Part shown: piece by piece, positions 45,701-46,652 of the stretch | Position numbering within the stretch: the first letter of the stretch is position 1 | Layout: each line of letters begins with the position of its first letter | NCBI GenBank assembly: GCA_022641835.1 | Contig: CP048720.1 | Coordinates: 496,001 to 560,000 of the forward strand | Source: Petasospora fabianii | Lineage: Eukaryota > Ascomycota > Saccharomycetes > Phaffomycetales > Wickerhamomycetaceae | Reading direction: 5' to 3' | DNA: 64,000 bases | The notes under the pieces: model-generated | What the model saw: the letters and a program-made list of their open reading frames with translations, nothing else | Databases searched by the model: none | What the model was told of the DNA's origin: nothing | Made by a program: the position numbers and the translations under genes

Positions 45701-46652
45701 GGACACTGACGACATTCGCTCCATTTGGGAGAGAAGAGAGTCCTTGTACCAGGAGTCACGCACCCATGTATTCCATTCTCATCTCTGTGAACATGAGCAG
45801 CACTTCTTGCAATTGAAGGAGAAGCTTGTTGCTTTTGTCAAGGCCATCAAGGCACCAAAGAAGAACTTCTATGTTGTGGGTTCTCCAATTTCCCATTCCA
45901 GATCACCTGTTCTTCACCAGACTTGCTACAAGGCTTTCAACTTGCCACATGAGTTCTCTAAGTTTGAGACCGCTGATGCCTCCGAGGTGGCCAAGTTACT
46001 TAAGGAGCCAACATTTGGTGGTGCTGCCGTTACTATCCCACTCAAGCTTGACGTCATTCCATTACTGACTGAAGTTGACGAGTCCGTTGAGAAGATTGGC
46101 TCATGTAACACTATTGTTCCACTCGGTGGTGGTAAGTTTAAGGGATACAATACTGATTTCAAGGGTATCCAAAACTCCTTTGTTGCTCATGGTGTCAAGT
46201 CGGCTCCATCAGCAGGTCTTGTCATTGGTGCTGGTGGTACATCCAGAGCTGCCATCTACGCTTTGAACAAGTTGGGCTGTAAGAAGATCTACATCACCAA
46301 TAGAACCGTGGAGAAGTTGACACCACTCGTCAAGGAGTTTGCTACCTACGGTGTTGAGATTCTCGAGGAGCCTGCTGCTATTGACGTTGCTGTCTCTTGT
46401 ATTCCAGCTGATAAACCAATTGACGAGACTCTCTTCCAGAAATTGGAGGCTGTGTTCAAGTTGAACAAGGGTAAAGTTCTTGATGCGGCTTACAAGCCAG
46501 AGTTTACACCAGTGATGAAGCTTGCCGAGTCCTTCGGATGGGAATCTATCAAGGGGGCTGAGATGTTGGTGAACCAGGGTGTTGAGCAGTTCAAGATCTG
46601 GACCGGATTGCAGGCTCCTTACGAGGAGGTCTTCAAGGCCGTTGTCAACTAG
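42774..46652 (+). CDS. ARO1: ARO1 lacking the dehydroquinase domain (1,292 aa)
   Basis: Shikimate-pathway multienzyme. Domains in order: dehydroquinate synthase (about residues 1-398; [37 protein letters not shown]), EPSP synthase (about 400-848; [27 protein letters not shown]), shikimate kinase (about 850-1020; P-loop [15 protein letters not shown]), then shikimate dehydrogenase (about 1028-1292; [28 protein letters not shown]). Fungal AROM proteins are about 1,550-1,600 residues, with a type I 3-dehydroquinate dehydratase between kinase and dehydrogenase. Here the kinase tail (LVAFVKAIK) runs straight into [14 protein letters not shown] with no trace of it. The frame is uninterrupted and the sequence is unique, so this is a real deletion. 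Retained domains keep their catalytic motifs. The start [14 protein letters not shown] matches the family; a Gcn4 site lies 105 bp upstream. Confidence 0.95.

Follow-up and report, generated by a model that had tools for sequence, protein, structure and literature searches.

Results

Organization of the ARO1 locus

The window, meaning the whole 64,000-nucleotide stretch of Petasospora fabianii DNA analyzed here, carries an ARO1 gene in one uninterrupted frame, and the coordinates of its domains are collected in Table 1. A mechanical open reading frame of the gene begins at a TTG 15 codons upstream of the ATG used here. A gene for a Lon-type protease (46849-50037, minus strand), with Lon_C, AAA and Lon substrate-binding domains, lies convergent with ARO1. 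The AROM polypeptide is a textbook fused pathway enzyme. The predicted ARO1 protein has its 3-dehydroquinate synthase (DHQS), EPSP synthase (EPSPS), shikimate kinase (SK) and shikimate dehydrogenase (SDH) domains in canonical order on a single chain, which places it in the AROM family. The type I dehydroquinase that a pentafunctional AROM carries between SK and SDH was missing, and we therefore describe the protein as a tetrafunctional AROM homologue and not as a pentafunctional AROM.

Table 1. Coordinates of ARO1, its domains and the type II dehydroquinase gene pair
Feature	Position	Strand	Remarks
ARO1, tetrafunctional AROM polypeptide	window 42774..46652	+	1292 aa from ATG; one full-length copy in own-genome search
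3-dehydroquinate synthase domain	window 42996..43832	+	PF01761 and PF24621, aa 75-353
EPSP synthase domain	window 43962..45263	+	PF00275, aa 397-830
Shikimate kinase domain (SK)	window 45351..45824	+	PF01202, aa 860-1017
SK/SDH junction	window 45834..45872	+	aa 1021-1033; type I dehydroquinase and adjoining linkers absent; break, by alignment, at about 45854/45855
Shikimate dehydrogenase domain (SDH)	window 45873..46631	+	PF08501, PF01488 and PF18317, within aa 1034-1286
Dehydrogenase-like gene	L001 493-1443	+	316 aa; beside type II gene
Type II dehydroquinase gene	L001 1480-1947	-	convergent with dehydrogenase-like gene

A Pfam scan of the ARO1 protein gave no match to PF01487, the type I dehydroquinase model. 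This result is informative because the same model still recognized three Wickerhamomyces proteins by their decayed domains, with E-values of 4.8e-9, 3.5e-11 and 1.2e-25. The junction DNA contains no frame break between SK and SDH. We aligned the window protein with 120 listed relatives out of 1063 matches, which gave an alignment of 121 rows. The spacing between anchors at the end of SK and the start of SDH was 10 residues in all four tetrafunctional rows and 220-245 residues in nine relatives whose domain is dead; for the 70 rows in which catalytic His and Lys are both present, the median was 249 residues. The preliminary description of this DNA had reported that the type I domain was absent between SK and SDH in one frame, and this was borne out by the Pfam scan, the anchor spacing and the same junction in three other proteins. 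It had also put the protein at about 285 residues shorter than that of S. cerevisiae; the loss is indeed of domain size, but the alignment places the gap at about 239 residues.

The other four domains appear to be retained, as had been claimed before. In addition to their Pfam matches, they kept most near-invariant positions, defined as those at least 97% identical in the 70 yeast AROM rows with catalytic His and Lys. The proportions were 98.6% for DHQS, 93.8% for EPSPS, 86.7% for SK and 92.5% for SDH. The low value for SK and the replacement of one near-invariant EPSPS Arg by His weigh against the account proposed in the Discussion.

The organism's own genome (12.3 Mb, 16 contigs) was searched in six frames by an intron-blind procedure that scored the best candidates and whose positive-control genomes were all prokaryotes. 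This search returned no match to PF01487, and the decayed domain of a relative, used as a query, found no credible match either. Its one weak hit, on contig C1 (1827193-1827408, plus strand), had an E-value of 0.06, covered 71 residues of a 931-aa frame at 34% identity and is probably a chance match. We rejected the idea that the missing domain sits in an intron or a split gene, since the frame is continuous and the genome search found no free domain. A second ARO1 copy was likewise rejected, the genome giving one full-length match and the 316-aa dehydrogenase paralogue of Table 1.

The same junction in related proteins

The best database match, P0001, is a same-length protein from Cyberlindnera fabianii named 'Pentafunctional AROM polypeptide', 99.5% identical to the window protein over 1292 residues. 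Cyberlindnera fabianii is the same species as Petasospora fabianii (Wickerhamomycetaceae, Phaffomycetales) in the current NCBI taxonomy. Two further proteins, P0002 and P0003, have 1290 residues each; their identity with the window ARO1 is 80.0% and 80.7%, and with each other 85.7%. P0002 lacked the type I dehydroquinase domain in a Pfam scan, and P0001 and P0003 lacked it according to precomputed domains and the alignment. The database name 'pentafunctional' on P0001 and P0003 thus does not fit these proteins.

These matches bear on whether an assembly or sequencing collapse deleted the domain from the record, a reading that has nothing in its favor beyond its general possibility. Since the C. 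fabianii protein and the two proteins of about 80% identity share the 10-residue spacing at the junction, such an error is extremely improbable. The genome search, which found no type I domain elsewhere, and the intermediate decay visible in relatives also speak against it.

Decay of the dehydroquinase domain in relatives

In each row of the AROM alignment we scored the four positions that correspond to Arg, Glu, His and Lys of the E. coli enzyme, which we take to be the active-site residues of the dehydroquinase. The roles of His and Lys are also given in PMC9074039. The 121 rows comprised 60 with the R-E-H-K pattern, 10 with R-Q-H-K, 47 with a changed His or Lys, and 4 without the domain. 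Judged by His and Lys alone, 70 rows were labeled live, 47 dead and 4 none, and these labels are predictions from sequence. In the 10 R-Q-H-K rows, which include Lodderomyces elongisporus, His and Lys are kept and the active-site Glu is replaced by Gln. The five of them placed on the tree described below all fell in its CUG part.

Nine dead rows group with the four tetrafunctional ones on that tree, and their domains were the more decayed. Among the 60 dehydroquinase positions that hardly vary across the 70 live rows, 77.9% were kept in the 38 other dead rows and 48.7% in these nine, and the other four domains of dead rows kept 91.6-99.4% of their near-invariant positions. As a second measure, we divided the pairwise identity of the dehydroquinase domain by the mean of SK and SDH. 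This relative identity was 1.05 in Lachancea, 1.01 in Saccharomycetales (these two sets share one row) and 0.98 in Hanseniaspora/Saccharomycodes, all of them live sets from outside the CUG clade. Among CUG rows it was 0.90 for 6 live and 0.75 for 18 dead ones. The nine dead relatives gave 0.70, with a range of 0.51-1.02, and the ranges of the sets overlap. On average, the dehydroquinase domain of the nine dead relatives evolves faster than the neighboring domains. The ratio alone is no proof of inactivity, because the live CUG rows are also mildly faster.

Within the CUG part, four rows (P0053, P0062, P0083 and P0107) show a gap where the catalytic His would stand, and their domain is shortened to 229-239 residues, compared with about 246. 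They are possibly further lineages on the way to domain loss.

Position of the loss on the AROM tree

The AROM tree was built from 62 of the 121 rows, selected as named species and rows with unusual states, with the dehydroquinase columns left out. It was made by a quick method with a midpoint root, and one long row (Saccharomycopsis) stands beside the clade of interest. The four tetrafunctional rows formed a single clade with an SH-aLRT value of 100. This clade was nested in a 13-row clade (100) whose nine other members, Wickerhamomyces pijperi, W. mucosus, W. ciferrii and six more, are dead, having lost the His but kept a decayed domain. The order and genus of those six and of two of the four tetrafunctional rows were inferred from the tree. 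The tree did not show which dead row is nearest to the tetrafunctional ones. Because the tetrafunctional clade sits inside a clade with decayed domains, decay probably came first and excision second. An alignment of related Aro1 proteins, proposed earlier as a means of dating the loss, thus gives a plausible time for it, within the 13-row clade.

Dead rows of the CUG clade lay elsewhere on the tree with live rows in between, and live rows also occurred inside the CUG clade. The tree needs at least four changes among the live, dead and absent states, and its well-supported branches alone force at least two for the dead state. Most simply, activity was lost independently at least twice and the domain excised once among the rows compared. 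The alternative is that dehydroquinase activity disappeared a single time, in a common ancestor with the Candida (CUG) clade, and that the live domains in between were regained or misread. In its favor, dead domains occur in the two groups alike, and the type II enzymes of both belong to a single fungal group (93/88, not a starred fork). Nevertheless, we regard a single loss as very unlikely, in view of the number of changes required and of the live rows that separate the two dead groups and recur within the CUG clade; the groups also differ in the residues changed and in domain length. Since live-domain rows stand between them, the decay seen here was probably separate from that in the Candida clade. 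The preliminary description had placed this lineage one step further than Candida, which was right in kind, although the path was probably not a shared one.

A type II dehydroquinase and its neighbor

Our search for a type II dehydroquinase, also suggested in the preliminary description, found one gene, on contig C4 (match 986015-986437, minus strand), encoding a 155-aa protein with an E-value of 2e-53; the free type I domain named beside it was not found with PF01487 or with the relative's decayed domain as query. The protein scored above the cut-offs of PF01220 and the NCBIfam aroQ equivalog model, and one of the five listed NCBIfam models fell 0.3 bits short. Its best solved relative, 3kip (E 8e-60), is named a type II dehydroquinase. 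Asn17, Arg24, Tyr29, Asn83, His89, Glu107, His109, Asn112, Arg116 and Arg120, presumably the active-site region, were each identical in all 120 listed relatives (of 8000 matches). W. pijperi, W. mucosus and W. ciferrii, which have dead AROM domains, each possess a type II protein.

A tree of 51 rows (the query and 50 selected from the 120 listed) grouped the query with an identical sequence and two others (99/93). A 15-row group joined it with Wickerhamomyces-type sequences and Babjeviella (97/94), and this group adjoined the enzymes of the CUG clade (93/88). A recent transfer of the gene from bacteria is not favored, as the protein groups with yeast sequences; the tree held only two rows with bacterial names and drew on the 120 listed of 8000 matches, and its deep forks were weak. 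We also counted by eye, among the matches listed, how many of the 42 named AROM rows other than C. fabianii belonged to species with a type II match. The result, 5 of 11 dead-domain rows versus 0 of 31 live-domain rows, is only suggestive that the type II gene tracks the dead-domain state among named AROM rows.

The type II gene is convergent with the 316-aa dehydrogenase-like gene, 36 bases away (contig C4, about 985,000-986,450). The 316-aa protein was below the cut-off of all 17 listed NCBIfam dehydrogenase models, and we call it quinate-dehydrogenase-like from the names of its relatives, several of which are called quinate dehydrogenase. Its equivalents of the Lys, Asn and Asp that we take to form the shikimate dehydrogenase active site were identical in all 120 listed relatives, and one Ser of the substrate site is Ala in 101 of the 120. 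In W. ciferrii, the type II and dehydrogenase-like proteins carry neighboring locus tags (BN7_3044 and BN7_3045) on contigs of equal length, which makes it probable that this species has the pair too.

The remaining pathway genes found in the genome were two DAHP synthases and one chorismate synthase. Together with the four conserved AROM domains, they would be hard to explain if the middle step were missing. This weighs against the possibility that C. fabianii lives as an aromatic auxotroph or scavenger, has lost the biosynthetic dehydroquinase step and uses the type II gene for quinate only. Such a role would fit the adjoining quinate-dehydrogenase-like gene, as expected for a catabolic enzyme, and PMC9074039 describes fungal type II enzymes as typically catabolic. 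However, the genome search gave no match to the protocatechuate 3,4-dioxygenase family. The single match in the genome to PF01261, which we assume to be the family that includes dehydroshikimate dehydratases, was read by eye as an APN1-like endonuclease. Two later families of quinate breakdown thus gave no fitting match, making a purely catabolic role less likely, and we judge the auxotroph reading highly improbable. The type II enzyme most likely carries the biosynthetic dehydroquinase flux. This agrees with the earlier suggestion of a tetrafunctional AROM relying on a separate type II enzyme.

Discussion

We consider it very probable that a type II dehydroquinase made the type I domain of AROM dispensable, and that decay, shrinkage and in-frame excision followed in the C. 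fabianii lineage. In an ancestor within the Phaffomycetales, the AROM dehydroquinase would have lost its catalytic residues because a stand-alone enzyme of the Dqd1/QutE type, encoded beside a quinate-dehydrogenase-like gene, covered the step. The dead domain would then have drifted and shrunk, until an in-frame cut close to its borders removed it in the lineage of C. fabianii and two relatives and joined SK directly to SDH. In the present-day cell, 3-dehydroquinate made by Aro1 would leave the protein, be dehydrated to 3-dehydroshikimate by the type II enzyme, and diffuse back in this form to the dehydrogenase, kinase and EPSP synthase domains. At the level of sequence, this account builds on the domain loss with its single origin among the rows compared, the decayed state in relatives and the one type II gene. 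Recruitment of the type II enzyme presumably preceded the decay, so that a formerly catabolic enzyme would now serve biosynthesis, and we assume that C. fabianii is prototrophic for aromatic amino acids. Quinate might also enter aromatic synthesis through the gene pair. The narrower statement, that a quinate-linked type II enzyme displaced the type I domain in the Phaffomycetales independently of the Candida clade, through graded in-frame decay to a dead and shrunken domain and then excision in the C. fabianii lineage, seems likely to us.

If this is true, these yeasts preserve a visible stepwise series in which a multi-enzyme was relieved of one domain after non-homologous replacement. The series would then argue, from a natural case, that neither folding nor flux requires the dehydroquinase domain once another enzyme acts, and would speak against channeling of the intermediate of this step. 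The preliminary description had expected channeling between the EPSP and dehydrogenase steps to need rethinking. This point is weaker than proposed, as the lost reaction falls between those of DHQ synthase and SDH and does not adjoin that of EPSP synthase; moreover, PMC9074039 describes no structural sign of active-site exchange in C. albicans Aro1 and leaves the effect on flux to future tests. Such yeasts would probably offer no target to inhibitors of type I dehydroquinase. The case also illustrates how a missing function may go unnoticed behind the automatic name 'pentafunctional AROM'.

The mechanism has a precedent in the work on C. albicans. In PMC9074039, C. albicans Aro1 is reported to lack dehydroquinase activity, replacement of the domain by a (GSS)6 linker to cause no detectable growth defect, and the type II enzyme Dqd1 to be active and essential; a changed catalytic His together with a type II gene is described for 5 of 7 Candida Aro1 proteins. 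The paper has no occurrence of 'Cyberlindnera', and no natural whole-domain loss was found in the sections considered; the passages of PMC10716058 considered contained neither 'domain' nor 'Cyberlindnera'. According to the accessible part of PMC9394408, many domains were lost independently among fungal EPSPS proteins. Because its DHquinase_I count (367 of 390) falls below that for SKI (374), cases like the window ARO1 may already be tallied there, unnamed. Our literature searches, whose coverage did not extend to most subscription papers and bioRxiv preprints, found no report of a natural excision of the AROM dehydroquinase. Apparently new, then, are the natural excision, its position on the tree, and the pairing of the type II gene with a quinate-dehydrogenase-like gene.

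Compared with known systems, the window ARO1 has the same order and clear similarity of four domains as the pentafunctional AROM of Chaetomium thermophilum (6hqv) and Nakaseomyces glabratus, but lacks their type I dehydroquinase between SK and SDH. The type II enzyme resembles catabolic dehydroquinases of the QutE type in grouping with fungal type II enzymes and in adjoining a quinate-dehydrogenase-like gene; it differs in that the two later breakdown families gave no fitting match here and its role is most likely biosynthetic. The closest parallel is C. albicans Aro1 with Dqd1, where a stand-alone type II enzyme is likewise credited with the step, and where the dehydroquinase domain of AROM can be spared but the other four are essential. 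However, C. albicans Aro1 keeps a folded dead domain that adds to dimer contacts, whereas in the window ARO1 the domain is gone. The layout is that of the engineered C. albicans deletion, of which the window ARO1 would be a natural counterpart, distinguished by a clean excision, a single origin among the rows compared and graded decay in its relatives.
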